DNA of 38,463 bases from Phycisphaerae bacterium (GTDB lineage: Bacteria > Planctomycetota > Phycisphaerae > Sedimentisphaerales > Anaerobacaceae): assembly GCA_016782755.1 (NCBI GenBank), contig JADHXY010000004.1, positions 1-38,463 of the forward strand, in the 5' to 3' direction. Of the stretch, positions 2,161-38,463 are shown piece by piece. Each line of letters starts with the position of its first letter. The stretch's first letter is position 1. The notes below the pieces were generated by a model, which saw nothing but the letters and a program-made list of their open reading frames with translations, did no database searches and was not told the origin of the DNA. A program made the position numbers and the translations under genes.

Positions 2161-3138
2161 TTATTTTCCTCCCAGGTAGTCTCCTGTTTGCAGGTAGTTC
2201 TGGACATAATCTTTAATTGCCTCTTCAAGAGTTGTGGTTGGTTTTTTAAAACCGGCGTCACGGAGTTTTGTTATATCGGCTTGCGTGTAGTACTGGTACT
2301 GGTTTTTGATCGAATCGGGCATAGTGACGTATTCAATAGCCGCCTTTTTATCCATGGCTGTGAAAACTCCCTTTACCAGATCGTTCCAGCTGCGAGCCTT
2401 GCCGGTGCCAATATTAAAAATCCCGCCGATGTCGGGGTTGTCCATGAAAAACAGTGTCATATCTACGGCGTCCTTGACGTAGATGAAATCGCGGACGTAT
2501 TCGCCGTCACCATAATCGGGGTTTGCACTCTTGAAGAGTTTCACTTTGCCAGTCGCATTTATCTGCTCGAACGATTTTAGTATGAAGCTTCGCATGTCGG
2601 CTTTGTGGTATTCGTTCGGGCCGAAAACGTTAAAATATTTCAAGCCGACTAATTTATCGAGCAACCCCGCCTTGCGCGCCCACAGGTCGAACATCTGTTT
2701 TGAATAGCCATACATATTCAGCGGCGTCAGCTGGTCGATCTCGGTTTCGTTATCGCTAAAACCTTTGCTGCCGTCGCCGTATGTGGCTGCACTGGATGCG
2801 TAGATAAAGCGGGCGTTTTCGGAGATTGCCCACTGGGCGAGATGTTTTGTGTATTCGAAATTGTTTTTCGCTAAATAGGAAGCGTCGGTCTCGGTGGTGG
2901 ATGAGCAGGCACCCATATGGAAAACGGCGGTAATAGCCTTTGGCGGACGGGCGGTGTGGATGAGGTTTAGGAAATCGTCCTTTTCGATATAGTCAGCAAA
3001 TCGGAGGTTGCGAAGGTTTTTCCATCTGCCATCAGTTCCAAGCTGATCGACAATGAGTATGTCGTCAATACCGCGTGCGTTAAGCTGGGCAACGATAGCC
3101 GAACCGATAAACCCTGCCGCTCCTGTTACTATAATCAT
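2161..3138 (-). CDS. hldD: ADP-L-glycero-D-manno-heptose 6-epimerase
   Basis: The 325-residue protein is an extended short-chain dehydrogenase of the HldD/RfaD type. It interconverts ADP-D-glycero- and ADP-L-glycero-manno-heptose, the last step in making the heptose donor for the LPS inner core. Evidence includes the N-terminal NADP-binding GAAGFIGSAI loop, the family block VDQLGTDGRWKNL, the ACSSTTETDASYL region, the ASSAATYG serine strand, the YGYSK catalytic Tyr-X3-Lys, and KYFNVFGPNEYHKADMRS. Length matches the family. It lies 40 bases upstream of tcmP on the same strand, but a functional link is not evident. Its presence implies an outer membrane with heptose-containing glycolipid. Confidence 0.95.
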   Translation of the reverse strand: MIIVTGAAGFIGSAIVAQLNARGIDDILIVDQLGTDGRWKNLRNLRFADYIEKDDFLNLIHTARPPKAITAVFHMGACSSTTETDASYLAKNNFEYTKHLAQWAISENARFIYASSAATYGDGSKGFSDNETEIDQLTPLNMYGYSKQMFDLWARKAGLLDKLVGLKYFNVFGPNEYHKADMRSFILKSFEQINATGKVKLFKSANPDYGDGEYVRDFIYVKDAVDMTLFFMDNPDIGGIFNIGTGKARSWNDLVKGVFTAMDKKAAIEYVTMPDSIKNQYQYYTQADITKLRDAGFKKPTTTLEEAIKDYVQNYLQTGDYLGGK

Positions 3139-3329
3139 CTTCTCGTTTCCTCAGAAAGTACGTATCCAATAAAAAAACAAGCATCAGTATAACCAATAGC
3201 CTTGCAATATCAAGAAAACAGTTTGTTCAGGAATAACTCAGGTTGAAATCTCAAAGAAAACGATATTAGAGCAGAATAATAATTTTATTGGAAAATTTGT
3301 GCCAAAAGTAGTACAAGTTTAAATTAATT

Positions 3330-5108
3330 ATGCAGATACGTTACGAAAACAAGCGTTTGGAACGAGCAACGATCGCTGTGAACGTGCTGTCATCGGCATT
3401 GGTGGCGGCAAGTTTTGTGCTTTTGTTCGGGTTCGATGCGCCGCTGCTGCCGGCTGAGTGGCTTTACGGGGTGCAGTTTGTGCTGCTTTTTGTATTCGTA
3501 GCAGAAAAAATCGTTCGCGGATTCAATGCAACATCACTTAAGGAATATATCGGCGGCTTCTGGTTCGAGATACCGTTATTGATAGGCCTTGTGGTGATGC
3601 TCTGGGGATCGGGGCGATGGTTTGCGGCTGCCAATATTTCTACCGTTCGCCATGTAGCGATAGGTATATATCTTGTGCTCGAGGTGGTATTCAAGCTTTG
3701 CCGCACTACGGTTAATCTGGCGGCTTCGGGTCGTAATCCGACGCGGGTTCTTATCGCAAGCTTTGTGTTTTTGATACTGGTTGGTGCAGGGCTTTTGACA
3801 CTGCCGAGGGCAGCCAGCGGAGAACGGATTAGCTTTGTCGATGCCCTCTTTACCTCGACAAGCGCCACTTGCGTTACGGGGCTTATTGTCAAGGATACCG
3901 GGGCGGATTTCAGCCTGCCCGGCCAGATAGTTATCCTTTCGCTCATCCAGCTGGGCGGATTGGGTATAGTGGTCTTCGGAGCTGTTTTTGCCCTTCTTCT
4001 CGGCCAGGCTTTGAGTCTGCGAGAATCCGTAGCCATGCAGGACATGCTCAGCGCGAGTACGCTTGGGCGGATCGGGAATATGATAGCATTTATTTTTCTC
4101 GGCACGCTGGTTTTTGAGGCTATCGGAGCGGTAAGCCTTTACGGTATGTGGGACAATGCGGCAGGCATGGATCTTAATTTGCAGCATCAATGGTTTTACA
4201 GCATCTTCCACTCCGTCAGCGCATTCTGTAATGCCGGGTTTGCTCTGTTTGACGACAGTTTAATATCATACCAGAGGCAATGGCGAGTCTTTGCGGTTAT
4301 AGTTCCGCTGATAATTCTCGGCGGTCTTGGGTTCGGTGTTCTTTATGATCTGGCAAATATTGCCGCTGACAGGTTCAAGAAACTTTCTATGAAGCTGCTG
4401 AAAAAGAACACTCTATTCAACGACTCGCCAAAACGAATGAGGCTTCAGACAAAAATCGTATTAAGCGTAAGCGGAATATTGATCCTGCTCGGAACGACCT
4501 TTATACTGCTGCTGGAACATTACACAGGACAGGGCAGCCACGAAAGCGGCGGTTTGCTGGGGGCGTTTTTTCAATCGGTCACCGCAAGAACAGCCGGTTT
4601 CAATACCATTGACATCTCTGCTATGAGCGCACCGAGTAAGTTCATATTAATAATATTGATGTTTATCGGCGGCTCGCCCGGTTCGACTGCCGGAGGTATC
4701 AAAACGGTAACTTTGGCGGTAATCGTAATAAGTGCAATCGCAACCCTCCGAAAGAGGCGCGACGTGGAGATATTTCAGCGCAGTGTAGGCCTTGTGGTTG
4801 TTGGAAGGGCCTTGACGGTGACTTTGCTGTTTTTGGTTGTTCTTCTGGGTGCGGGGCTGCTGCTGAGTATTACAGAATCAGCTGGCGGATTTGATTTTAT
4901 GGATATTATGTTTGAGACGGCTTCTGCACTTGGCACAGTAGGTCTCTCAACAGGAGTTACCGGTGCTTTGACAATGGCTGGCAAATTGATTATCATCGCT
5001 GTGATGCTGATAGGCAGACTTGGGCCATTGACGCTACTGGCAGTTTTGACATTTAATCTCAAGCCTGCAAAATACAACTATCCGGAAGAAGCGATAATCG
5101 TCGGCTGA
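3330..5108 (+). CDS. TrkH/KtrB-family potassium uptake channel subunit with extended N-terminus
   Basis: This 592-residue multi-pass membrane protein has the four pore loops of the TrkH/KtrB family: TSATCVTGL, SAFCNAGF, ARTAGFNT and ALGTVGLS. Each carries the filter glycine. The GGSPGSTAGGIKT segment after the third loop is also typical of the family. At about 590 residues it is longer than classical KtrB (about 450); the extra 130-150 N-terminal residues hold additional predicted membrane helices. Potassium (possibly with sodium) uptake at the inner membrane is the expected role. The gating subunit follows 27 bases downstream. No clear Shine-Dalgarno precedes the ATG, which sits in an AT-rich leader, so the start is a little uncertain. 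Confidence 0.93.
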   Translation: MQIRYENKRLERATIAVNVLSSALVAASFVLLFGFDAPLLPAEWLYGVQFVLLFVFVAEKIVRGFNATSLKEYIGGFWFEIPLLIGLVVMLWGSGRWFAAANISTVRHVAIGIYLVLEVVFKLCRTTVNLAASGRNPTRVLIASFVFLILVGAGLLTLPRAASGERISFVDALFTSTSATCVTGLIVKDTGADFSLPGQIVILSLIQLGGLGIVVFGAVFALLLGQALSLRESVAMQDMLSASTLGRIGNMIAFIFLGTLVFEAIGAVSLYGMWDNAAGMDLNLQHQWFYSIFHSVSAFCNAGFALFDDSLISYQRQWRVFAVIVPLIILGGLGFGVLYDLANIAADRFKKLSMKLLKKNTLFNDSPKRMRLQTKIVLSVSGILILLGTTFILLLEHYTGQGSHESGGLLGAFFQSVTARTAGFNTIDISAMSAPSKFILIILMFIGGSPGSTAGGIKTVTLAVIVISAIATLRKRRDVEIFQRSVGLVVVGRALTVTLLFLVVLLGAGLLLSITESAGGFDFMDIMFETASALGTVGLSTGVTGALTMAGKLIIIAVMLIGRLGPLTLLAVLTFNLKPAKYNYPEEAIIVG

Positions 5109-5135
5109 GGCACGAAATTTTTAGGAGCATAGAAA

Positions 5136-5834
5136 ATGAAGCGTTTTGCTGTTATAGGTTTAGGTCGGTTTGGAAAGAAACTTGCAATCGCATTGGCCAT
5201 GAGCGGAGCGGATGTTATAGCCATCGACAAAGACCGTGAAGAAGTTGACAGTATCCGCGACCAGGTTAGCCTTGCCGTTCGCCTCGACAGTACCGACGAA
5301 GAAGCGATGAAGGCGCAGGGTGTCGACAAGGTGGACGTTGCAATAATCGGGATCGGTCAGGGTACGGGCAAGGGGTTCGAGTCGGCGGTTCTTACAGTCG
5401 TTAACCTAAAGCAAATGGGCGTTAAAAACATATACACCCGCGCAGAGGACCTCACTGCCGGCGAAGTTTTTTCCAAGATCGGTGCAACCGAAGTAATTTA
5501 TCCGGAAATAGAATCCGCACAACGCTGGGCATATAAGCTCATAGCACCACAGATCGGCGAAAAAATCGACTTCGCGCCGGGTTACAGCCTTGCCCGGGTA
5601 AAATCACCTCCGAGCTTCGACGGTAAGACCGTTATGGATATGCAGCTGCGGCAAAAATACAATGTCAACCTCGTTGCAATAAAACGCAGCGAGGATAGCA
5701 AGGCCAAAAAGAGCGAAAAAGGCGACAAAGGCGGAATTATAAATGTTCCCATGCCAAATACAGTCATCTATGAAGGCGATATACTCATGGTGGCCGGCTC
5801 TGATGTCAACCTCGCAAAGCTGCCGCAAGATTAA
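5136..5834 (+). CDS. TrkA/KtrA-family potassium uptake regulatory subunit (RCK)
   Basis: The 232-residue cytosolic protein has an N-terminal RCK domain with the nucleotide-binding loop VIGLGRFGKKLA and the acidic strand end AIDKD. An RCK_C (TrkA_C) domain follows from about residue 145, including GKTVMDMQLRQKYNVNLVAI and a C-terminal YEGDILMVAGS. Such proteins form a gating ring under the TrkH/KtrB channel and respond to nucleotides. An insertion rich in Lys, Glu and Gly (about residues 188-202) interrupts the RCK_C domain. A good ribosome site (TTAGGAG) precedes the ATG. The gene forms a two-gene operon with the channel subunit just upstream. Confidence 0.93.
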   Translation: MKRFAVIGLGRFGKKLAIALAMSGADVIAIDKDREEVDSIRDQVSLAVRLDSTDEEAMKAQGVDKVDVAIIGIGQGTGKGFESAVLTVVNLKQMGVKNIYTRAEDLTAGEVFSKIGATEVIYPEIESAQRWAYKLIAPQIGEKIDFAPGYSLARVKSPPSFDGKTVMDMQLRQKYNVNLVAIKRSEDSKAKKSEKGDKGGIINVPMPNTVIYEGDILMVAGSDVNLAKLPQD

Positions 5835-5995
5835 GATTTCATCAAATATGCCCGACGGCAGCAAATCTGCTATCGTTTGGTTCTGCTGAAGCAAATGTTA
5901 CACAATTGGTAAATATCGGTCAAGTCTTACAGTTGCGCGTGGCAGCAATATGGGTTCACAGATGACTCGTTCAAAACCTCTCGAAGCTTTTTTGT

Positions 5996-6013
5996 GCTTT
6001 TTTTTAATCGAGT
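5996..6013 (+). repeat. Left copy of an 18-bp perfect direct repeat
   Basis: GCTTTTTTTTAATCGAGT is identical to the sequence at 8356-8373. The two copies bracket the 67-aa gene and the C39-like peptidase gene. Both lie at the T-tract end of a terminator-like hairpin. The pair could be a target or attachment duplication, or simply two related terminators. Confidence 0.6.
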
Positions 6014-6153
6014 GCTTTCCGGCCTGATTTTGGTTAAAATTGCAGAAAATTGGAATATATTTGAACCAATCGGGGCAAACTGCGTCTTTACCCGATGATA
6101 AACCAGTGATACAATAATATAGTTGGAACCGACCATTATACAAGGAGTTAACG

Positions 6154-6646: not shown

Positions 6647-6682
6647 TTTTCACCAGATATCTGATTTTAGGGGGTTTCTCTA

Positions 6683-8302
6683 TTGCACAATGTTTTTGCG
6701 AAAAGCTCACCAGTACCTAAAAAATGTGAGAGTTCTGAGTATTCATTCTATTTCGACCTTATTTCACCTTTGTGGGAAAACTGCGAAGCCAAGGGGGCTA
6801 TTCATCGATTATGTTCTCTTATGCGCAAAATGGGCGTGAAAACTTTGGTTGAAGAGGAACTTGAGCCTAATACCGAAATTCTGAATGAGTTCGAGGATTT
6901 AGAAAAACAGATAAAAGGTGATCTTTCTGAACGGAAAGCGATTCGTTTTAGTTTTTTCTCCTGCCCCTGCACTGACAAATGGTGGGAATATCCCGCGGAA
7001 TCATTTTTGGGCTATGCCGTTATTTTAAAAGCAAAACTTCCAGACAACGATAGTGGTAAAGATATTTCATATATACTCGAATCTGTTACACGACCCCCAG
7101 GTTGGGCCGAGGGTGAAATTTTCAAACAGGTGACAAATTATTATATCCATTGTCATAATACTTTTTTAACCACTATTGGCACAACAAAGCAATGTAAAGA
7201 GCATTCTATTGAGGGGGTGTTCTTTTGTCAGCAAAATACGCTCACCCACGTCTGTGCCCATGCTGCTCTAAGGACGATGCTTAATACTCGCCAAGAATTA
7301 ATTGGTCATAAAGTAACCAATCGAGAACTCAACGACATCTTGAAAGCCAAATTCCCCAAAGATTATACCGATGGAGTTTTCTACACAGGACTATATCCCT
7401 ATCATATGGAAGCAATAGCCACCTATTTCAAGCTCAATATTTTGCCAGCAGATTTTTTAAATATGGGAACAGTGGATTACGCCGAATGGATATATCCTCT
7501 CATTGAATCCGGTTTCCCTGTGTTGCTGGCGTTCTGCCCTACACATTCATTGGGGCATGTAGTTGCTATTTTGGGACATACAATAAACTCAGACAAATGG
7601 GATAGTGAAGCGCATTTGGCCTATCGTCCTGAAGCATTTGGAACATACCACGCAAGTTCTGCTTGGGTAGATCATTTTATAATCAATGATGATAATTTCG
7701 GTATGTATACCTGCATGCCACCAACATATTTGAGAAATAAGCTACTGCCACAATATGACCAGACCCAACGTGCTACATTTGCTTTGGCGTTATTGCCAGC
7801 GAACACTGATGCAGCACCATATGTTGCTGAAAAATCCTCTGTTAGTTTAGTGGAAAATTTGGCAATGTGTTATACACCAACAACAGATAATAAATGGTTG
7901 AATCGTTTATGGGGACAACTTCGACAAAGAAATAAAGGTGTCGTCGCCAGAACCGTAATTTGCAAGAAAGATGCCTATATTGAATCTCTTAAATCACATT
8001 TAGCTGCTGAAGATCAAATTCCAAAAGAACTTTCAATTTGCTCAGAGAATATCATAGTAACCGAAATTAGTCTTCCTGATCTCTATACCTGCAATAAACA
8101 TAAACTTGGCGATGTTGTAAGTGATGCAAAAACAGTTATATCAAATGGAAATCGGTATATACAGTTTATTTGGGGCTGGTTACCAGGAATCCAAGTTCCT
8201 GCAGAACCGAAAGAAGGAATCACACCATCCGATTGGCCAATAAAAACCCATATTCCGTTATTCAGACATTCGAATACTCTCAAACCACATAGTGAATGGT
8301 AA
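6683..8302 (+). CDS. Papain-fold (C39-like) cysteine peptidase domain protein
   Basis: The 539-residue protein uses a TTG start preceded by AGGGGG eight bases upstream. Residues 1-165 are unassigned. A C39-like core follows: FFCQQN (Gln183/184, oxyanion hole), VCAHAALRTML with Cys191 as candidate nucleophile, GFPVLLAFCPTHSLGHVVAILGH with His292, and FIINDDNFG with Asp336. This is the order and spacing of a papain-like Gln-Cys-His-Asp set. The last 140 residues are a separate unassigned region. There is no signal peptide or membrane helix, so it is likely cytosolic. It is neither fused to nor adjacent to an ABC exporter, unlike bacteriocin-processing C39 enzymes. It sits with a small protein in an AT-rich module between direct repeats. 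Function is unknown. Confidence 0.7.
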   Translation: MHNVFAKSSPVPKKCESSEYSFYFDLISPLWENCEAKGAIHRLCSLMRKMGVKTLVEEELEPNTEILNEFEDLEKQIKGDLSERKAIRFSFFSCPCTDKWWEYPAESFLGYAVILKAKLPDNDSGKDISYILESVTRPPGWAEGEIFKQVTNYYIHCHNTFLTTIGTTKQCKEHSIEGVFFCQQNTLTHVCAHAALRTMLNTRQELIGHKVTNRELNDILKAKFPKDYTDGVFYTGLYPYHMEAIATYFKLNILPADFLNMGTVDYAEWIYPLIESGFPVLLAFCPTHSLGHVVAILGHTINSDKWDSEAHLAYRPEAFGTYHASSAWVDHFIINDDNFGMYTCMPPTYLRNKLLPQYDQTQRATFALALLPANTDAAPYVAEKSSVSLVENLAMCYTPTTDNKWLNRLWGQLRQRNKGVVARTVICKKDAYIESLKSHLAAEDQIPKELSICSENIIVTEISLPDLYTCNKHKLGDVVSDAKTVISNGNRYIQFIWGWLPGIQVPAEPKEGITPSDWPIKTHIPLFRHSNTLKPHSEW

Positions 8303-8336
8303 AAACAAAACCGACCCCTCCGAAAGACTAAGAAAA

Positions 8337-8365
8337 GGCTGGACTTTTTCGTCCGGCTTTTTTTT
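8337..8365 (+). terminator. Rho-independent terminator after the peptidase gene
   Basis: GCTGGAC (8338-8344) pairs with GTCCGGC (8351-8357) around a six-base loop, with one G-T pair, followed by eight T residues. It lies 35 bases after the peptidase stop codon. The T-tract is shared with the right copy of the 18-bp direct repeat. Confidence 0.85.
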
Positions 8366-8373
8366 AATCGAGT
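8356..8373 (+). repeat. Right copy of the 18-bp perfect direct repeat
   Basis: This copy is identical to 5996-6013 and overlaps the terminator T-tract. Sequence outside the 18 bases does not match between the two copies, so the repeat has sharp limits. Confidence 0.6.
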
Positions 8374-8490
8374 CCCCTCAGGCGGTGGACCAAAACCGCC
8401 AGCTTTGAATAAACCACCACGATATCCAATAATCGATTACACAGAAAAATATATTGTCAGGCAGCCTCAGCAGTATCGCCAAGAACTTGG

Positions 8491-8518
8491 TTGTTATATT
8501 GAGCGGTTTTTGTATAAT
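8491..8518 (+). promoter_or_regulatory. Candidate sigma-70 promoter for mutS
   Basis: TTGTTA (8491-8496) and a perfect TATAAT (8513-8518) are separated by 16 bases. They lie about 70 bases upstream of the mutS start codon. No other gene on this strand lies in between. Confidence 0.55.
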
Positions 8519-8590
8519 CACCTCTTGATCTGTGGATCAAACTTTACGACTCTTTTTTATACCTGATAAGGCTTAGCGGTAGAGATTATT

Positions 8591-11209
8591 ATGACAGAAA
8601 ACGTTCAAAAACTTACTCCTGCTATGAAGCAGTTCCATTATTTCAAAAAAAAGTACCCCGATGCAGTTCTTTTTTTCCGCATGGGCGATTTTTATGAAAC
8701 CTTTTACGAAGATGCGAAAATATGCTCAAAAGTTCTCGGCCTAACCCTTACAAGCAGGAGCAAGGGAACAAATCCCATCCCCTTAGCGGGCGTTCCTTTC
8801 CATGCCGTTGATGGCTACCTGAAAAAAATGCTCCAGGCCGGCTACAAGGTAGCGGTCTGCGAACAGGTTGAAGACCCAAAAAAAGCACAAGGCGTAGTAA
8901 AACGTGATGTTGTCAGAATAGTCACTCCCGGAACCCTTACCGATGACATGCTGCTCAATGCAAAGGAAGACAATTTCCTCTGTGCAGTCGGAATCGGGTC
9001 AGCCGGGGCGGCACTGAGCTGGATAGATATTTCGACGGGGCATTTTTTCTGTCAGAAGCTTGACGAGCAAAAGCTCTTAGATGAGATACTGCGGCTCGGG
9101 CCGGCAGAGTGTCTGGTGCCCGATATGCGAGGCGAACTTTTCGAGCAGCAAACAAAAGAGCTAACACGCCAGATATCACAGCTTACTGGTGCAGTTATAA
9201 CCGAAAGGCCGGGGTGGTATTTCGACCGACATCAGTGCACCCAGCGATTGATCAAACACTTCAAAACCGCAACACTCGAAGGGTTCGGCATAATTGACTC
9301 AGACGAAAGCATCATACCTGCCGGCGCAATACTCGAATATCTAAACGAGACACAAAAAACCGCACTCGGTCATATATCAAGCCTCAAAAGGATCGACCGC
9401 AAAAACTACCTGCAAATCGACCAGGCCTCACTCAGAAGCCTTGAGGTTCTGCGGACGATGCGAGGCGAAAACCAGAAAGGTTCATTACTTGACAGCATAG
9501 ACATGACACTGACCGGCATGGGCGCAAGAATGCTAAGAAACTGGGTTTGCATGCCGCTGTGTGATGTTGGTGCAATTGAACTTCGCCAGGATGCAGTAGA
9601 AGAGCTAAAAGATTCACCAGACAGGCTTGGAGATATCAGCAGGCAGTTAGGTGACATTTATGACCTCGAGAGAATTGCTGCAAGGGTCAGCACATTTCGC
9701 GCAAACCCGCGAGACCTTCTTGCATTGGCTTCGACTTTAAGACAGATACCCGCTTTGCGTTCTGTTCTGGGGGGTATGGAGTCGGATATATGGCTTGAGT
9801 TGTCGAACGGCTGCGACAGTATCGATGAGTTGGCAGAACTGCTTGATAGTGCAATAAAGCCGGATTCTCCGACACATCTGCGAGGTGGCGGTGTAATTAA
9901 GGACGGCTTCAACCAAAAGCTCGACCAGCTGCGAAGCATATCCAGAGACGGACAGAAATGGCTTAGAGAATATCAAAAATCACAGATCGAACGCACCGGA
10001 ATAGCCAACCTGAAAATCGGATACAACAAAGTATTCGGTTTCTATATCGAATTGAGCGGCTCATCCGCACACAAAGCACCAACGGATTATATCCGCAAAC
10101 AAACCCTCAAAAACGCCGAGCGATACATAACCGAGGAACTTAAAGAATACGAATCAAAAGCAATCGGTGCCAGCCAGACCGCTTTAGAACTCGAGCTGGA
10201 ATTGTTCGAGACCATCAGGCGACAAGCCGCCGAATACGTCGCCAGACTCCAGAAGCTGGCAAATATAATTGCACAGTGCGACTGCCTGACTGCTTTTGCG
10301 ACATTAGCAAGGAAAAGAGCATACATCAGGCCGCAAGTGACAAATAGCGGAGAGCTGTATATAGAGGAAGGCAAGCATCCGGTTTTGGCAGAGAACCTCG
10401 GTGCCGAATTTGTCAGCAACGATATCGAACTCGGCGGCAAAAAGGGCGATTGCATAATAATCACAGGCCCAAACATGAGCGGCAAAAGCACCTATATCAG
10501 GCAAGTCGCTCTTTTGGCACTGCTCGCACAGACAGGCTCGTTTGTCCCCGCAAAATCCGCATCGATTGGAGTTGTCGATAGAATATTCACAAGGGTCGGC
10601 GCCTCCGACGAACTGACACGAGGCCGATCAACATTCATGGTAGAAATGACAGAAACCGCAAATATAATAAATAACGCCACAGAAAAATCTCTTGTCATAC
10701 TCGATGAGGTCGGCAGGGGAACGAGCACCTATGACGGTTTATCGCTTGCATGGGCGATTACAGAACATATAGCAACAAAATTAAAGTGCAGAACCCTGTT
10801 TGCGACACATTATCATGAATTAACAGAGTTAGCGGAGCTTTTTGAGAATATAAAAAATTGCAACGTAGCCGTTCGTGAATGGATGGACGAGGTTATATTT
10901 TTGCACAAGATTGTAACCGGCGGTACAGACAAGAGTTATGGTATTCATGTGGCAAAGCTGGCTGGGTTGCCAAAAACAATACTCCAGCGGAGCAAGGAGA
11001 TACTTGCCGATCTCGAAAGTACGTTTACAAAAGAGGTTAGCGGCGAACATTTATCCAGGCTAAAAACCAAAGAGCCTGAGCAAAACCTGCTTTTTGTTGA
11101 GAAAAACAAAGGTGTACTCGATAAACTTGCTTCGATCGACGTTAATAATCTGACCCCGATAGAGGCGATAAACCTGCTTAATCAGATAAAAAACGAAATC
11201 AAAGATTGA
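8591..11209 (+). CDS. mutS: DNA mismatch repair protein MutS
   Basis: The 872-residue protein is a full-length MutS. The N-terminal mismatch-recognition domain has GDFYETF with Phe34 and Glu36, the pair that stacks on and contacts the mispaired base. The connector, lever and clamp domains follow. The C-terminal ATPase has Walker A GPNMSGKST (about residues 626-634), the Walker B ILDEVGRGTSTYDG stretch and the ATHYHEL switch. The C-terminal tail (LTPIEAINLLNQIKNEI) is the tetramer-forming helix region. The protein starts mismatch repair with MutL, which is not in this window. Transcription appears independent, from the promoter near 8500. Phe-X-Glu marks the MutS1 subfamily. Confidence 0.98.
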   Translation: MTENVQKLTPAMKQFHYFKKKYPDAVLFFRMGDFYETFYEDAKICSKVLGLTLTSRSKGTNPIPLAGVPFHAVDGYLKKMLQAGYKVAVCEQVEDPKKAQGVVKRDVVRIVTPGTLTDDMLLNAKEDNFLCAVGIGSAGAALSWIDISTGHFFCQKLDEQKLLDEILRLGPAECLVPDMRGELFEQQTKELTRQISQLTGAVITERPGWYFDRHQCTQRLIKHFKTATLEGFGIIDSDESIIPAGAILEYLNETQKTALGHISSLKRIDRKNYLQIDQASLRSLEVLRTMRGENQKGSLLDSIDMTLTGMGARMLRNWVCMPLCDVGAIELRQDAVEELKDSPDRLGDISRQLGDIYDLERIAARVSTFRANPRDLLALASTLRQIPALRSVLGGMESDIWLELSNGCDSIDELAELLDSAIKPDSPTHLRGGGVIKDGFNQKLDQLRSISRDGQKWLREYQKSQIERTGIANLKIGYNKVFGFYIELSGSSAHKAPTDYIRKQTLKNAERYITEELKEYESKAIGASQTALELELELFETIRRQAAEYVARLQKLANIIAQCDCLTAFATLARKRAYIRPQVTNSGELYIEEGKHPVLAENLGAEFVSNDIELGGKKGDCIIITGPNMSGKSTYIRQVALLALLAQTGSFVPAKSASIGVVDRIFTRVGASDELTRGRSTFMVEMTETANIINNATEKSLVILDEVGRGTSTYDGLSLAWAITEHIATKLKCRTLFATHYHELTELAELFENIKNCNVAVREWMDEVIFLHKIVTGGTDKSYGIHVAKLAGLPKTILQRSKEILADLESTFTKEVSGEHLSRLKTKEPEQNLLFVEKNKGVLDKLASIDVNNLTPIEAINLLNQIKNEIKD

Positions 11210-23082: not shown

Positions 23083-23610
23083 TTGAAGAAAATTGACTGG
23101 AATCAGATCGTTAAGGAGTTTGGCCCGCTTGTGTGGCACAATGCCTACAAGTTTTTAAATAGCCATGAGGATGCGTCTGACTGCTTCCAATCAACATTTT
23201 TGGAAGCCGTTAAATACTCAAAAAATAAAAAAATAAACAATTACGGTGCTTTTCTTGCAAAAATCGCCACTTCGAAGGCTATTGACATTTTGAGAAAGCG
23301 AAAAGTCAGGATATCCCGAAGCATTGATGATGAATTCGCTGAAGAGATCGTGTCTTCAGAGCGGGACCCTGCCAAAAGCATGGAATCCAGGGAGCTTGCC
23401 GACAAACTCAGAAACGCCCTGGCTGATCTGCTGCCGACTGAGGCGAAAGTATTCGCCCTGAAGCATTTTAATAATATGAGCTATAAAGAAATCGGGGCAT
23501 TGCTTGGAATAAAAAAATCTAACGTGGGGGTAATTCTATTGAGAGCAAAAGAAAAAATCGTGAAAAACATGCAAACTGAAAACATTAAAAGAAAAAGGGG
23601 ACAACTATGA
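23083..23610 (+). CDS. ECF-type RNA polymerase sigma factor
   Basis: The 175-residue protein has sigma region 2 (LVWHNAYKFLNSHEDASDCFQSTFLEAVKY, and a region 2.4-like KIATSKAIDILRKRK) and region 4 (LLPTEAKVFALKHFNNMSYKEIGALLGIKKSNVGVILLRAKEKI). It starts at TTG 23083, preceded by AAAGGAG at good spacing. Its stop overlaps the next start as ATGA, so translation is coupled to the downstream partner. That arrangement fits an ECF sigma factor with a membrane-anchored regulator, as is common in planctomycetes. The target regulon is not visible; self-transcription is likely. Confidence 0.9.
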   Translation: MKKIDWNQIVKEFGPLVWHNAYKFLNSHEDASDCFQSTFLEAVKYSKNKKINNYGAFLAKIATSKAIDILRKRKVRISRSIDDEFAEEIVSSERDPAKSMESRELADKLRNALADLLPTEAKVFALKHFNNMSYKEIGALLGIKKSNVGVILLRAKEKIVKNMQTENIKRKRGQL

Positions 23611-23759
23611 AGTATGATTTTGAATTAGAAAAGGCTATATTAGCACTTAATAACACTCCTATCGTCGAAGGACCGTCTGATGAGTTGATAAAGAGGACGT
23701 TGATGCGGATCGCTGAGACCGAATTGTTAGCGAAAATCGAACATTATGGCACATTTTAA
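23607..23759 (+). CDS. N-terminal segment (50 aa) of the sigma-factor partner, split off by an in-frame TAA
   Basis: This short frame starts with ATG in an ATGA overlap with the sigma gene and ends at TAA 23757-23759. Its sequence (DFELEKAILALNNTPIVEGP, then SDELIKRTLMRIAETELLAK) looks like the cytosolic head that normally precedes the membrane segment in such partners. The next codons, AAG then TTG, continue in the same frame into the long downstream protein. The two frames therefore look like one gene broken by a nonsense codon, or one that restarts translation. The head, possibly the sigma-binding part, would then be made separately. Confidence 0.65.
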   Translation: MKYDFELEKAILALNNTPIVEGPSDELIKRTLMRIAETELLAKIEHYGTF

Positions 23760-23762
23760 AAG

Positions 23763-26700
23763 TTGAGATATAGTAATTTCGCTAAATTTGCCGCCGCAGC
23801 TGTAATAATCTGCATTGGCACTCTGGCACTGCTGACATTTACTGACCGCTTTGAGTTTAATACATCAGGGACTGTGCAAACAAAAAACACAACGGACACG
23901 GGGGCAAATCAAACAGTTACCGATATTTCTAAAATGGGCATAAAAGAAAAAATAGAACTCGCCGGGGAACTGCTATCGCAAAACAAGATAGCTTCGCTTA
24001 TCGCACTGCTTAACGACCCTGACCTGAATGTTCGGCTCACAGCCTATAAGGCATTGAAAAATTCTAACGATCCGCAAGCTATTGCAGCCGTAAGTGCCTT
24101 CGCCGCCCAGCTCGAAGAACTCAGCAATCAAACACCCGACCTGCAGCAAATCACACCCGCCGCAGAACCTAACGAGTCTGAACTGATTAACGCACCAGCA
24201 GATACTCAAGGCAACTTGTTATTTAAAACTGTCGATCAGCTTACAGGTATGCTGCTTGGGAATGTCAAACTCGATATTAAATGGGAGGGCAAAGAACAAT
24301 ATAATGATGTTACAAATAGCGAGGGAGTTTGTAATATCGATTTTGAGGGGCAAAGGCCCGGCGATATAAGGATAGTCGCTTCACTGCCGGGTTTTGTGCC
24401 AAAAACTTTTTACTATACTAAGTATTACGACAAGGCTTTTATAATACCAAAATCCCATACGATGACCCTCGAGCGTGGAACGAGCATTTCCGGCAGGATA
24501 GTTAATCAACAGCAGGAGCCTATCAGCGGCGCATCGGTATTCGTTACAATTCAAACGGACATCGCCCAGCAAAGAATCTCTGAATACAATTTTGTTAATG
24601 ACCATAAAGTCCTCACAGATACTAACGGTTTCTGGAGCTGCGATGTTATCCCAGACAACGCTGATAAAGTCAACCTCCGGCTTTCTCACCCCGATTACAT
24701 AGACGACGAATACTCTGGAAGAACTATCTCGACAAGCACCCCGATAGAAAACTTGCGCAGCGGCAACATTGTATCAGTTATGAAAAAAGGCATACCCGTT
24801 ACAGGAATAGTCGTTGACCGCCAGGGCAATCCCATCAAATCGGCAACTATAAACAAAGGTGAATATACAAGCGATGCTTATAAATGCCGTACAAATCCAC
24901 AAGGCCAATTCAATCTCGGCCATGTAAAGCCCGGCCTTGCTCTGATCACTGTCAGTGCCAAAGGCTTCGCACCGCAACTTGAGGAACTTGATATCAACCA
25001 GGATACCGAGCCGCTCGTATTTACCCTTGAACCGGCACAGAGCATCTACGGACAAATGGTCGATCAGGACGACAAGCCCATCAGCGGTGTATGGATAAAT
25101 GTTGACTCCTGGAGAGGCTACCGAACACTGGACAACGGCTCATATCGAACTCGCACTGGTAAGGACGGAAACTTTGAACTGAAAAATATGCCCAACGAAG
25201 AAATGCTATTCAGTATATACAAACCGGGTTATCTGTCTATCAACAAGCTGCCTATGTCATGCGATACTGCAAAATACACCATCGTTTTGTATCCTCCGGT
25301 AAATGCCAAAGGATCTGTTACAGATGCGGACACAAATGAACCTATCAAGCAATTCACCCTCACAGAAGGTATTCTATGGCAGGGACAGGAAAATGTATCA
25401 TGGCAGACTCATTCCTCAAGAATAAAAACCATGCAGGGACCCGATTACAATTATGACTTTACTTCAGGCGGCGCAGACGGCTTTACTATTCGGATAGCCG
25501 CGGATGGATATTTACCACAGGACTCTAATATCTTCTATATCGACCAGCAAAATATCGTCTGCGACTTCAAGCTCAAAAAAGCGGATAATATCACCGGTAC
25601 CGTACTTTCCGCCGAGGGCAATGAACTTAAGAATGTTCAAATTGCTCTTTGCAGCCCTCGATATTACATAGGCGTTACAAATGGTCGGCTGCAAAATAAA
25701 AATGACTTTAAGACGTATTCCACAAATCAGGACGGCTGGTTTTCGATACCTCCGTTGCCGCAGGACGAAAAATATTCCATACTGTTTTTGCACGATAGCG
25801 GTTATGCCGTTGTTAAAGCAGACCAATACCAAGCAGGCAGTGAAATTACTCTTACTCAATGGTCTGGGATCGAAGGCAACCTGATAGTAGGCGATAAACC
25901 TGCAAGCGGCGAAAATATCGCTTTCTGGCAAGATCGTTCATACAACTCAGACCAAGTAAATATAACATTTGAGCAAACAGTCGTCACGGACGCTAACGGC
26001 AGCTTCAAATTTGAAAAATTGCCAGCCGGCCCAGCTAAGGTCGGGCAGAGAATCTACACCAGCGAAAGAAGCTGGACATATACAAATACCACCCCCGTTG
26101 AAACTCTCGCCGGCGAGATAGTCAATGTACAGCTTGGCGGCCAGGGCAGACCTGTCGTCGGAAGGTTTGCACTCCCCGATAGCTATAAACATCCGGTCAG
26201 CTGGAACGGATATTATGCCTCTATAAAAAAGGACCACAAAAGTTACGCTATAGCCGTTGGTTCTGATGGCAGTTTCCGAGCAGAAAATGTCAAAGCCGGT
26301 AATTATTCGCTGACTATGACTTTGAAAGAAAATGATATCGTCTCTAATTCCGACGGCACAATTTTGAATGGAGAAACGATCGGCACCGCAACCCTTGAGA
26401 TAACCGTAGCCGATTGCAACGAAACATATAATCCTGAACCACTCGATCTGGACACGATCATATTAAAAACTAAAAACCGACCTATGCCCGGCGATACCGC
26501 CCCGCCGCTCGAATTGAAAACCATAGGCGGCAAAGCTATCAGCCTCAATGATTTCGCCGGCAAGATGACTATGCTCGTCTTCGCATCTTTCGATCAGTCG
26601 TATTACACAGAAACTTTCGAAAAGCTAAAAACCGCATGGCAGCCGTTTGAAAACTCATTAGCCTGCTTCTATGTATCGGTTTATGATAAGCCCAGCTCTA

Positions 26701-26894
26701 TTGAATACATCCAGCAAAGCCAGCTCGAAGAAACAACCGGCCTTATTGACGATAATTCAAGAAAAAGTGTTTACGGCAGCTACGGCATCAGCTCACTGCC
26801 CGTTTTAATATTGATTGACGAAAATGGAACGGTTTTACTGCGGAATCCTTCGAAAGTCGTTTTGAAAAATACAATTTTGAATCTGCTCAAATAA
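23763..26894 (+). CDS. Large membrane-anchored protein with carboxypeptidase-regulatory-like repeats and a redoxin-like C-terminus
   Basis: The 1043-residue frame begins at TTG 23763 without a recognisable Shine-Dalgarno, right after an in-frame stop that separates it from its probable N-terminal head. A membrane segment (FAAAAVIICIGTLALLTF) lies at residues 8-27, followed by a HEAT-like stretch (DPDLNVRLTAYKALKN). About seven carboxypeptidase-regulatory-like beta domains follow, e.g. GRIVNQQQEPISGASVFV, GIVVDRQGNPIKSATI and GQMVDQDDKPISGVWINV. The last 140 residues resemble an AhpC/TlpA redoxin (PGDTAPPLELKTIGGKAISL), but the CXXC position reads DQSY, so no thiol chemistry is expected. The bulk should face the periplasm. 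Coupling to the ECF sigma gene suggests signal sensing. Confidence 0.8.
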   Translation: MRYSNFAKFAAAAVIICIGTLALLTFTDRFEFNTSGTVQTKNTTDTGANQTVTDISKMGIKEKIELAGELLSQNKIASLIALLNDPDLNVRLTAYKALKNSNDPQAIAAVSAFAAQLEELSNQTPDLQQITPAAEPNESELINAPADTQGNLLFKTVDQLTGMLLGNVKLDIKWEGKEQYNDVTNSEGVCNIDFEGQRPGDIRIVASLPGFVPKTFYYTKYYDKAFIIPKSHTMTLERGTSISGRIVNQQQEPISGASVFVTIQTDIAQQRISEYNFVNDHKVLTDTNGFWSCDVIPDNADKVNLRLSHPDYIDDEYSGRTISTSTPIENLRSGNIVSVMKKGIPVTGIVVDRQGNPIKSATINKGEYTSDAYKCRTNPQGQFNLGHVKPGLALITVSAKGFAPQLEELDINQDTEPLVFTLEPAQSIYGQMVDQDDKPISGVWINVDSWRGYRTLDNGSYRTRTGKDGNFELKNMPNEEMLFSIYKPGYLSINKLPMSCDTAKYTIVLYPPVNAKGSVTDADTNEPIKQFTLTEGILWQGQENVSWQTHSSRIKTMQGPDYNYDFTSGGADGFTIRIAADGYLPQDSNIFYIDQQNIVCDFKLKKADNITGTVLSAEGNELKNVQIALCSPRYYIGVTNGRLQNKNDFKTYSTNQDGWFSIPPLPQDEKYSILFLHDSGYAVVKADQYQAGSEITLTQWSGIEGNLIVGDKPASGENIAFWQDRSYNSDQVNITFEQTVVTDANGSFKFEKLPAGPAKVGQRIYTSERSWTYTNTTPVETLAGEIVNVQLGGQGRPVVGRFALPDSYKHPVSWNGYYASIKKDHKSYAIAVGSDGSFRAENVKAGNYSLTMTLKENDIVSNSDGTILNGETIGTATLEITVADCNETYNPEPLDLDTIILKTKNRPMPGDTAPPLELKTIGGKAISLNDFAGKMTMLVFASFDQSYYTETFEKLKTAWQPFENSLACFYVSVYDKPSSIEYIQQSQLEETTGLIDDNSRKSVYGSYGISSLPVLILIDENGTVLLRNPSKVVLKNTILNLLK

Positions 26895-36434: not shown

Positions 36435-36468
36435 AAAAAGGCCGAGCTTCTTTGGCTCGGCCTTTTTT
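36435..36468. terminator. Bidirectional terminator between parB and the signal-peptidase gene
   Basis: AAAAAGGCCGAGC (36435-36447) and GCTCGGCCTTTTT (36455-36467) form a 13-bp perfect stem with a seven-base loop and T-runs on both strands. Confidence 0.93.
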
Positions 36469-36508: not shown

Positions 36509-37450
36509 TCACTTACTTATCTTTCCGAAACGCGACCAATCTTTTGATGGGCAGTAGAGATAATCAGCTTTGCCCTTGATGGTAGCTAATGGGATGGGGC
36601 CGACATGCCTGCTGTCTCGCGTAAAATTACGATTATCTCCAAGAACAAAGCAGTGATGCTCAGGAACCGTTGTTTTAGCAAAATCATGTGATAGTTTATC
36701 ATGGGGTGGCTTGGCCAAGAAAATTTTATATTTGGCATTACCATTAATCTCATAGAACACATCTCCTTCTAAAGGTTTGCCATTAATTTTAATTCTTATA
36801 TTATCCAACATTTTCTGAGGAAGTTTTTGTATTTCAAGTTTTTCATTGTTTACATGAACCTCATTATCTTTGATTTCAATCGTATCTCCAGCAACAGCAA
36901 CAACCCTTTTAATAAAGTTTTGCCGCCTATTCTCGGGATTAATAAAAACTATCATATCTCCTCTTTTAGGATTTTTACTCCTGTAAGCAAGTTTATTTGC
37001 CAGAAATCTGTCATTAGGTACTATAGTTGGATAGTTGGCGGCCACTGGTACTCGAAATGCTTCAAAGTAGTTTGACTTGACATTAGAAGCCACTTCTGTG
37101 GAGCCACCCGCGCTTATTAGTATTAACAGCAGATATACATACCATCGGTTATATTCTTTTAGCTCATAGTTCAGCTTCGCATGTTTTGCGACATAGTAAG
37201 AATCAATTATCGCCATAATGGCTACTGCTAAAGAAGCCAATATCGACATTCCGATGATTACCATTTTTATGGGAACATCAAACATTAGCGTTATCAAAAT
37301 TATGGGCACGAATATGCTGGAAAGAAATGTTAGTAATAATCCTTTTACAATCCTTCCACAATATACATGTCCAAGGCCGGGCATAATTAGTGAAAGGACA
37401 ATTGCATTTAAGGGCTTTCTTTTTTTTGTCTTACCCATTTCTATAGCCAT
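36509..37450 (-). CDS. Signal peptidase I-like protein lacking the catalytic serine
   Basis: The 313-residue protein has an N-terminal membrane domain (four hydrophobic segments, about residues 13-30, 38-56, 63-83 and 104-117) and a C-terminal S26 signal-peptidase domain. Family blocks are clear: RFLANKLAYRSKNPKRGDMIVF, FIKRVVAVAGDTIEI with the general-base Lys181, and VLGDNRNFTRDSRHVGPIP. At the nucleophile motif, where the family reads P-T/S-x-S-M-x-P-T, this protein reads PVAANYPT, so the Ser is Ala138 and the following Met is Asn. Peptidase activity by the usual Ser-Lys pair should be absent. Either it is inactive, acting as a binding or sensing protein, or another residue serves. It follows the small membrane protein gene by 18 bases in a sigma-factor operon. 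Confidence 0.85.
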   Translation of the reverse strand: MAIEMGKTKKRKPLNAIVLSLIMPGLGHVYCGRIVKGLLLTFLSSIFVPIILITLMFDVPIKMVIIGMSILASLAVAIMAIIDSYYVAKHAKLNYELKEYNRWYVYLLLILISAGGSTEVASNVKSNYFEAFRVPVAANYPTIVPNDRFLANKLAYRSKNPKRGDMIVFINPENRRQNFIKRVVAVAGDTIEIKDNEVHVNNEKLEIQKLPQKMLDNIRIKINGKPLEGDVFYEINGNAKYKIFLAKPPHDKLSHDFAKTTVPEHHCFVLGDNRNFTRDSRHVGPIPLATIKGKADYLYCPSKDWSRFGKISK

Positions 37451-37468
37451 TTCAGTTTTCCTTTATAT

Positions 37469-37720
37469 TTAAGTTCCTAAAAACATGTAAACCGTAAAAG
37501 CCATTCTGATGAAACCAGCAACCACACCAGCCGCAACCATTCCGGCTTTTGCAAGCGTGTGAGTATAAATAGCCTCCACAAATCGTTGCACATCCAACAA
37601 AGGTTTTTTCTTCTGTTCGTATTGACACACTTTCTTCATCACCTTTTCTGCGAATTTTGGGTCAACATCGATTTGGCTTCTTTGTTTTTTCCAATCTTCA
37701 TAAACCTTTTCACTTTTCAT
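37469..37720 (-). CDS. Small single-pass membrane protein, candidate anti-sigma factor
   Basis: The 83-residue protein has a charged cytosolic head (VYEDWKKQRSQIDVDPKFAE, then KVMKKVCQYEQ) and one membrane helix near residues 57-80 (AGMVAAGVVAGFIRMAFTVYMF). Its ATG overlaps the sigma-factor stop by four bases (ATGA), so translation is coupled. This is the usual place for an anti-sigma factor, and the small size with a single helix fits a minimal one, but no zinc-binding HXXXCXXC motif is present. I do not recognise a named family. Confidence 0.7.
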   Translation of the reverse strand: MKSEKVYEDWKKQRSQIDVDPKFAEKVMKKVCQYEQKKKPLLDVQRFVEAIYTHTLAKAGMVAAGVVAGFIRMAFTVYMFLGT

Positions 37721-38259
37721 GTGTCATCTTCCTCAAAACTTTTAAGGGCCGGCCTTAGCTTCTTTTTGGCCCTGTTGATTCTCGATTTTATTGTGCCGAT
37801 TCTTACGCCCTCAATTTGTGCTATCTGCTCGTATGGCAGTTTTTCAAATTCAGCCAAGACAAATGCCGTTTTCAGCTTGGTTGGTAAAGTTGTTAAAACT
37901 TGATCCAATCGGTCGAAGAATTCCTGTTGTGCCAGGTTATTGACAGGTGTGAATAAATCTGTATTTTCCGGCACGTTACTCATCGAAAGAACTCTTTTCT
38001 TTTTTGCTGCATTTATGCTTTTATTCCTTGCGATAGTAAACAGCCATGTAGAGAAACTGCTGCGGTTAGGATCAAAATCTTCCAGCTTTTTATATGCGGT
38101 AAAGAAAACTTCCTGAGCAATATCTTCACAAATATGATTGTCGTTAATAATATTTCTTATCATTGTGATAACCGGCCTCTCATATCTCTGTACCAATAAT
38201 CGAAAAGACTCAACATCTCCATCCAATACCGCTCTGATGATGCTGATTTCTTTGATCAT
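37717..38259 (-). CDS. ECF-type RNA polymerase sigma factor
   Basis: The 180-residue protein has sigma region 2 (FRLLVQRYERPVITMIRNII, then DNHICEDIAQEVFFTAYKKL and SFSTWLFTIARNKSINAAKKK) and region 4 (LTTLPTKLKTAFVLAEFEKLPYEQIAQIEGVRIGTIKSRINRAKKKL). The DIAQEVF and TWLFTIARN blocks are classical for ECF group sigma-70 proteins. It is the first gene of a minus-strand operon with the small membrane protein and the serine-less signal peptidase. The regulon is not visible. The remaining 200 bases to the window end are AT-rich, hold no gene and likely contain its promoter. Confidence 0.95.
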   Translation of the reverse strand: MIKEISIIRAVLDGDVESFRLLVQRYERPVITMIRNIINDNHICEDIAQEVFFTAYKKLEDFDPNRSSFSTWLFTIARNKSINAAKKKRVLSMSNVPENTDLFTPVNNLAQQEFFDRLDQVLTTLPTKLKTAFVLAEFEKLPYEQIAQIEGVRIGTIKSRINRAKKKLRPALKSFEEDDT

Positions 38260-38463
38260 TACTTAATTCCAAAAGTTAACCGATAAATTCCCTATCCGGT
38301 TATACAATTAACAATAGCCATAGTTCCACAAATTTTTTTTATCCTGTCTTATCATATAAGTCCGAAATATTTATTTTTTTCTTTTTAAAGCTGGTAAAGG
38401 GTTTTATAATCCTTGGTTGTATTGGCAATGGATTATTGAGAGGTTGGGTTGGTTTATGGATAG

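Follow-up and report, generated by a model that had tools for sequence, protein, structure and literature searches.

What could a signal peptidase-like protein do when it is encoded behind a sigma factor and lacks its own catalytic serine? This question is raised by a locus of a Phycisphaerae bacterium (a planctomycete), for which the first-pass annotation had proposed that an inactive but peptide-binding signal peptidase could sense the secretion load or unprocessed exports. The window, i.e. the whole 38,463-nt stretch of DNA that was analyzed, belongs to contig JADHXY010000004.1 of assembly GCA_016782755.1, a draft of 134 contigs that is 84.6% complete. All positions count from the first letter of the window.

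Organization of the operon

The locus holds the following features:

37717-38259, minus strand: ECF sigma factor gene (180 aa; sigma regions 2 and 4.2)
37469-37720, minus strand: gene of a small protein with a single transmembrane (TM) helix (83 aa; candidate anti-sigma factor)
36509-37450, minus strand: gene of an S26 signal peptidase-like protein (313 aa)
38299-38327, minus strand: ECF-type promoter GGAAC-N16-TGTATAAC, 5' of the sigma gene
37034-37048, minus strand: altered box B, P-V-A-A-N, residues 135-139 of the S26 protein (coordinates computed from the open reading frame)
36435-36467, both strands: strong, bidirectional rho-independent terminator (14-bp stem, T tails on either strand)

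The open reading frames correspond exactly to the order of sigma factor, small membrane protein and S26 protein that had been described for this stretch. The sigma gene and the small gene are joined by a 4-nt ATGA overlap, which is also frequent among the relatives, and 18 nt lie between the small gene and the S26 gene. The terminator closes the operon and sits between it and a convergent parB-like gene.

The sigma factor and its promoter

The 180-aa sigma factor matches Sigma70_r2 (3.7e-19) and Sigma70_r4_2 (7.1e-15) in Pfam. With regions 2 and 4 only, its domain content is that of the ECF type. Its orthologues occupy the same position in the relatives and are 48-82% identical. Another part of the window (23083-26894) encodes a second ECF sigma factor (175 aa) and, after it, a protein of 1043 aa that contains carboxypeptidase-regulatory repeats and, at its C terminus, an AhpC/TSA (thioredoxin-like) domain.

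GGAAC at the -35 position is typical of ECF promoters. With two mismatches at most, GGAAC-N16-TGTATAAC was found 5' of the sigma gene in 30 of 36 homologous loci, compared to about 0.6% for shuffled sequences. The promoter at 38299-38327 is the sole match with at most one mismatch in the whole window genome. Across 36 relatives, 18 of the 22 exact matches fall at the sigma/S26 operon. The remaining four stand against five control matches, and a wider regulon is not claimed. The promoter is conserved, and each genome has practically no other such site, which makes it most likely that the sigma factor acts chiefly on its own operon. Apart from the two regulators, the evident product of that operon is S26. 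The three-gene unit looks autoregulated, and we infer that GGAAC-N16-TGTATAAC is the promoter that this sigma factor recognizes.

Two relatives display variations on this arrangement. In G035, a second exact copy of GGAAC-N16-TGTATAAC (L126, 3277-5104) lies 5' of the gene of a secreted transglutaminase-core protein (3376-4845), which is followed by a remnant of the C-terminal part of S26. This second copy may indicate either another target for the sigma factor or an operon copy in decay. In G095 (L089, 3959-6916), no stop separates the sigma gene from an O-antigen-ligase-like (Wzy_C) gene upstream, and the two are in frame. As the conserved promoter is located within this frame, the sigma factor of G095 probably starts at its own ATG.

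The small membrane protein

In the AlphaFold2 model (pLDDT 80), the small protein consists of three cytoplasmic helices and a C-terminal TM helix (55-82). The chain stops 1-10 residues past this helix and ends in FLGT. Alignment of the orthologues revealed that Trp10 and Arg72 are invariant, while Tyr7, Val27 and Met28 are conserved at 90% or more. A pairing of the invariant Arg in the TM helix with Asp83 of the S26 protein was considered but is not claimed: Asp83 is lost in G131 and G132, while the Arg stays at least in G131.

It had been suggested that this protein is a candidate anti-sigma factor. Its position and topology fit that role; no known anti-sigma domain was matched, as neither a family above the cut-off (Pfam) nor a fold (Foldseek) was found. 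Small proteins of the DUF5056/DUF3379 type are encoded directly after ECF sigma genes. They share with the window protein this gene position, the short length, the single TM helix and the cytoplasmic N terminus. However, the matches to DUF5056 and DUF3379 are below threshold and concern single members only (0.012 and 0.11), and homology is not established. It is as a plausible anti-sigma factor of the adjoining sigma factor that the small protein is treated here. In G145 (L105, 6668-7435), the sigma factor and the small protein share one reading frame of 255 aa. This is either a natural fusion, which would hint at a direct partnership, or the result of a one-base indel where ATGA normally forms the overlap.

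The S26 protein and its altered nucleophile

The third protein is assigned to Peptidase_S26 (PF10502, Pfam; 1.8e-35, residues 124-298, 122.8 bits vs a cut-off of 22.9) and to sigpep_I_bact (TIGR02227, NCBIfam; 2.4e-36, 125 bits vs a cut-off of 47). A membrane helical domain (residues ~13-127), for which weak similarity to DUF6677/TM2 was found below the Pfam cut-off, precedes the S26 domain (~124-305). The positive-inside pattern predicts a location of the S26 domain outside the cytoplasmic membrane. For the AlphaFold2 model, which was built with 16 orthologues (pLDDT 71), the matches in the PDB include E. coli LepB (E 1.5e-10), SpsB and the inactive SipA (4n31; about 1e-5, TM 0.72 by target length).

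When aligned with solved signal peptidases and relatives, VAANYPTI lies over the xSM-PT box and Lys181 over the catalytic Lys. The nucleophile position is occupied by Ala138. Lys181 and box E (GDNR 271-274 and DSR 279-281) are intact, and the claim of an Ala138 beside a retained Lys181 and GDNR..DSR box is thus borne out by the open reading frame and the alignments. The same claim listed Asn139 as a departure from the expected Met. This could not be upheld: among the 41 orthologues (window included) the residue after the Ser position is Met in 21, Asn in 11 and Cys in four, with Glu, Leu and Val among the others. As Asn is so common, Asn139 is a trait of the subfamily, and only Ala138 is a lesion. 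Because the Ser to Ala exchange removes the nucleophile, the window copy is predicted to be inactive, and it should represent a natural catalytic null.

Conservation of the operon

With a profile of 16 S26 orthologues, the gene was retrieved from 37 of the 161 genomes searched within the order and, among 392 genomes drawn from the phylum, from five more distant ones. Upstream sequence is visible in 36 loci within the order. In 33 of them a sigma gene is found immediately upstream of S26, at a distance that would accommodate the small gene, and the order of the three genes, for which a check had been proposed, is strongly conserved. The sigma-S26 order also occurs in other families of the phylum (G524, G267, G262 and G259). 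The flanking genes are not conserved across the orthologous loci compared, so it is the three genes that form the unit. In G022 and G059, S26 occurs without a close sigma homologue and with an intact dyad, which suggests an enzyme that may work outside the module. A trypsin-PDZ (HtrA/DegP-like) gene on the opposite strand, ~2.4-3.7 kb upstream of S26, was observed in eight loci (L078, 9500-10984, and its equivalents in L082, L085, L086, L088, L097, L099 and L103). This neighborhood may be either a link to envelope stress or chance synteny.

The window genome contains one further S26 gene. It encodes a LepB of 506 aa with the GSM motif, Lys and box E intact. A lepB such as had been sought elsewhere in the genome therefore exists, predicted to be active with Ser-Met and Lys in place, and the operon protein is not the only signal peptidase of this organism. 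A separate S26 gene of ~500 aa was likewise found in eight of the ten relatives checked; of the other two, G131 displays a partial frame only and none was found in G095 (genome 67% complete). Given this separate LepB, the operon S26 protein is accessory.

Loss of the serine and of other catalytic residues

Ser is kept in 38 of the 41 orthologues and Lys in 40. The exceptions are the window protein and G006 (both Ser to Ala), G131 (Ser to Thr) and G071 (Lys to Asn). Other catalytic damage was found beside these exchanges, and the affected orthologues are located as follows:

L091 (G071), 6675-7604: Lys to Asn
L108 (G131), 4375-5313: Ser to Thr
L074 (G006), 92-1057: Ser to Ala, with GDNR changed to CDNR; no close sigma homologue found in this genome
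L077 (G010), 7693-8625: Ser and Lys kept, DSR triplet deleted
L082 (G005), 7242-8219: in-frame TAA; no close sigma homologue found

The sister gene in G095 is 79% identical to the window S26 gene and has Ser and Lys intact. The pairing of the two received support of 100/99 in a maximum-likelihood tree in which the dyad columns were masked. On this tree the dyad state changes four times (Ser to Ala twice, Ser to Thr and Lys to Asn), and by this reconstruction the dyad residues have changed about four times independently. Codon 138 (37037-37039, minus strand) reads GCC (Ala) in the window and TCC (Ser) in G095, G004, G035, G012 and G010. Judged from these codons, the missing serine is a lineage-specific loss through the single-base change TCC to GCC. 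In the first-pass annotation, an intact Ser in homologues of the same operon was named as an observation that would count against its reading. This is what was found: nearly all of these homologues, including that of G095, carry an intact Ser, and with 38 of 41 orthologues retaining it the idea that the operon is built around a peptidase without serine had to be abandoned.

Degenerate S26 domains also occur apart from the operon. Some of these paralogues without a sigma operon contain TM2-like domains. They include L116 of G007 (2418-3533, Ser to Gly) and L117 of G039 (4953-5984, Ser to Ala and Lys to Met), together with strongly degenerate domains in L118 of G032 (5045-6031) and L119 of G014 (1964-2959). 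Pseudo-signal peptidases seem to be recurrent in these planctomycetes.

Comparison with known systems

The type I signal peptidases (S26A; E. coli LepB, S. aureus SpsB) share with the window protein the S26 fold and boxes, the Lys base, GDNR/DSR and a membrane anchor, and its same-operon relatives possess the full Ser-Lys dyad. The window protein differs in the Ala at the nucleophile position, the TM2/DUF6677-like N-terminal domain, the operon with an ECF sigma factor and, as often in its subfamily, the Asn after the Ser position. SipA of Streptococcus pyogenes is a signal peptidase fold without the dyad (Asp48 and Gly85) that keeps its cleft and serves pilus polymerization. Its role is essential and non-enzymatic, and the dyad appears to be intact in its homologues of other streptococci (PMC4049620). 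The window protein resembles SipA in that an S26 fold has lost its Ser and family members elsewhere have the dyad. However, SipA has lost both Ser and Lys, whereas the window protein keeps Lys and is found with a sigma factor.

In Bacillus, a signal peptidase is the site-1 protease for RsiV (PMC4183432), and SipP serves as the site-1 protease for RsiP (PMC8844934). The SigV-RsiV and SigP-RsiP systems likewise bring together an ECF sigma factor, a membrane anti-sigma factor (here a candidate) and a type I signal peptidase. In RsiV and RsiP, however, it is an extracellular part that is cleaved, while the small protein of the window has practically none, and the window peptidase is cotranscribed and predicted to be inactive. 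As the small protein lacks an extracytoplasmic domain that could be cleaved, the RsiV/RsiP mechanism is not directly applicable to it, and a role of the S26 protein as site-1 protease on the small protein is not favored. The window genome does encode a member of the site-2 protease family, which is not specific evidence for an RsiV/RsiP-type system.

Constraint on the window copy and competing explanations

The loss of the nucleophile may simply be recent: the accessory peptidase would no longer be needed and its gene, in early decay, would have no role. We regard this explanation as the less probable one, at roughly one chance in four. Its main support is the rate of evolution. In the maximum-likelihood tree the window S26 branch measures 0.23 vs 0.064 for the sister, and relative-rate tests with four outgroups gave chi-square values of 9.3, 2.8, 7.1 and 11.5 for S26, three of the four past the 5% level; for the sigma factor, none passed this level with any outgroup. 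Part of the S26 excess may be a matter of rate and not of selection, because the synonymous distance to G004 is larger for the window S26 gene than for that of G095. The independent catalytic damage in G006, G071, G131, G010 and G005 also agrees with decay. The distribution of the substitutions, however, argues against it. Despite 37 window-only substitutions (relative to the G095/G004 state), none of the 52 near-invariant columns (same residue in at least 34 of the 36 orthologues within the order) is altered, where random placement would have hit ~6 (p about 0.001). The dN/dS between the window and G095 is ~0.16 (maximum likelihood, 0.134/0.829), and the frame, the promoter, the small gene and the sigma gene are all intact. 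By these measures the window S26 gene is probably still a gene under constraint.

The same faster evolution fits relaxed constraint as well as repurposing. A repurposed pseudopeptidase would bind signal peptides or unprocessed exports and report the secretion load to the sigma factor via the small protein. The retained Lys and all other near-invariant residues are consistent with such a role, as are the intact operon and promoter, the several independent dyad changes within one family and the precedent of SipA, whose signal peptidase fold is functional in the absence of a dyad that its homologues elsewhere retain (PMC4049620). The faster evolution of the window S26 protein nevertheless weighs on the other side, and we consider repurposing doubtful. 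Since nearly all same-operon orthologues keep the dyad, any sensor role would have to be one that does not require an inactive enzyme.

According to a third explanation, codon 138 would in truth be TCC (Ser), and the window protein would have the usual activity of an accessory signal peptidase. A single base (GCC vs TCC) in a draft assembly is all that an assembly or sequencing error would require. Such an error is nonetheless improbable: there is an excess of further substitutions along the branch that carries the change, and G006 is changed at the same position within a different surrounding sequence. More improbable still is a protease that works by another nucleophile or a different base. 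It would make sense of the retained Lys181 and box E, but neither the position itself nor its neighbors in VPVAANYP are Ser, Thr or Cys, Thr142 is the PT residue common to most homologues, and no compensating residue is limited to the Ala proteins.

Proposed mechanism

The explanation that we favor, and hold to be reasonably probable, is an autoregulated, self-contained ECF module, found in planctomycetes of the Phycisphaerae type, with an accessory signal peptidase that occurs in the window as a natural catalytic null, probably still folded. The small membrane protein would tether the sigma factor at the membrane until an envelope cue releases it. The released sigma factor would act mainly at GGAAC-N16-TGTATAAC and thereby raise the expression of its own operon. 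The S26 protein would be the output of the module. Beside the housekeeping LepB it would normally provide an accessory signal peptidase activity through its Ser-Lys dyad, with a TM2-like anchor and the peptidase domain outside. In the window lineage, the TCC to GCC change would leave this output catalytically dead. The window copy probably still folds, because apart from the nucleophile the protein is conserved, with Lys181 and box E retained. It may still bind signal-peptide-like ligands and partners and keep any non-catalytic role. We thus infer from the sequences that the S26 protein is the output, that the relatives with a dyad are active and that the null copy still binds.

A sensor function of the whole module may also be envisaged, in which an S26-fold protein would be a sensory partner and not an enzyme alone, bind signal-peptide-like ligands and set the activity of the sigma factor via the 83-aa protein. 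Catalysis could then be lost repeatedly (in the window genome G000, G131 and G071) without loss of the module. This is given a low probability; if true, it would constitute a bacterial pseudopeptidase sensor of the export load.

Significance

Signal peptidases in ECF sigma pathways are known. The open-access literature searched, on signal peptidases with ECF sigma factors in Planctomycetes and on signal-peptidase pseudoproteases, described neither the three-gene unit nor a signal peptidase that is encoded third in an autoregulated ECF operon. For annotation the locus calls for caution, as a profile-based assignment to signal peptidase I, even one that exceeds its cut-off more than twofold (here TIGR02227), can concern a protein that is catalytically dead. 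For the family, natural catalytic mutants occur beside intact sisters that are 79% identical, which offers a direct test of whether it is the peptidase or the peptide-binding fold that matters in this signaling unit.
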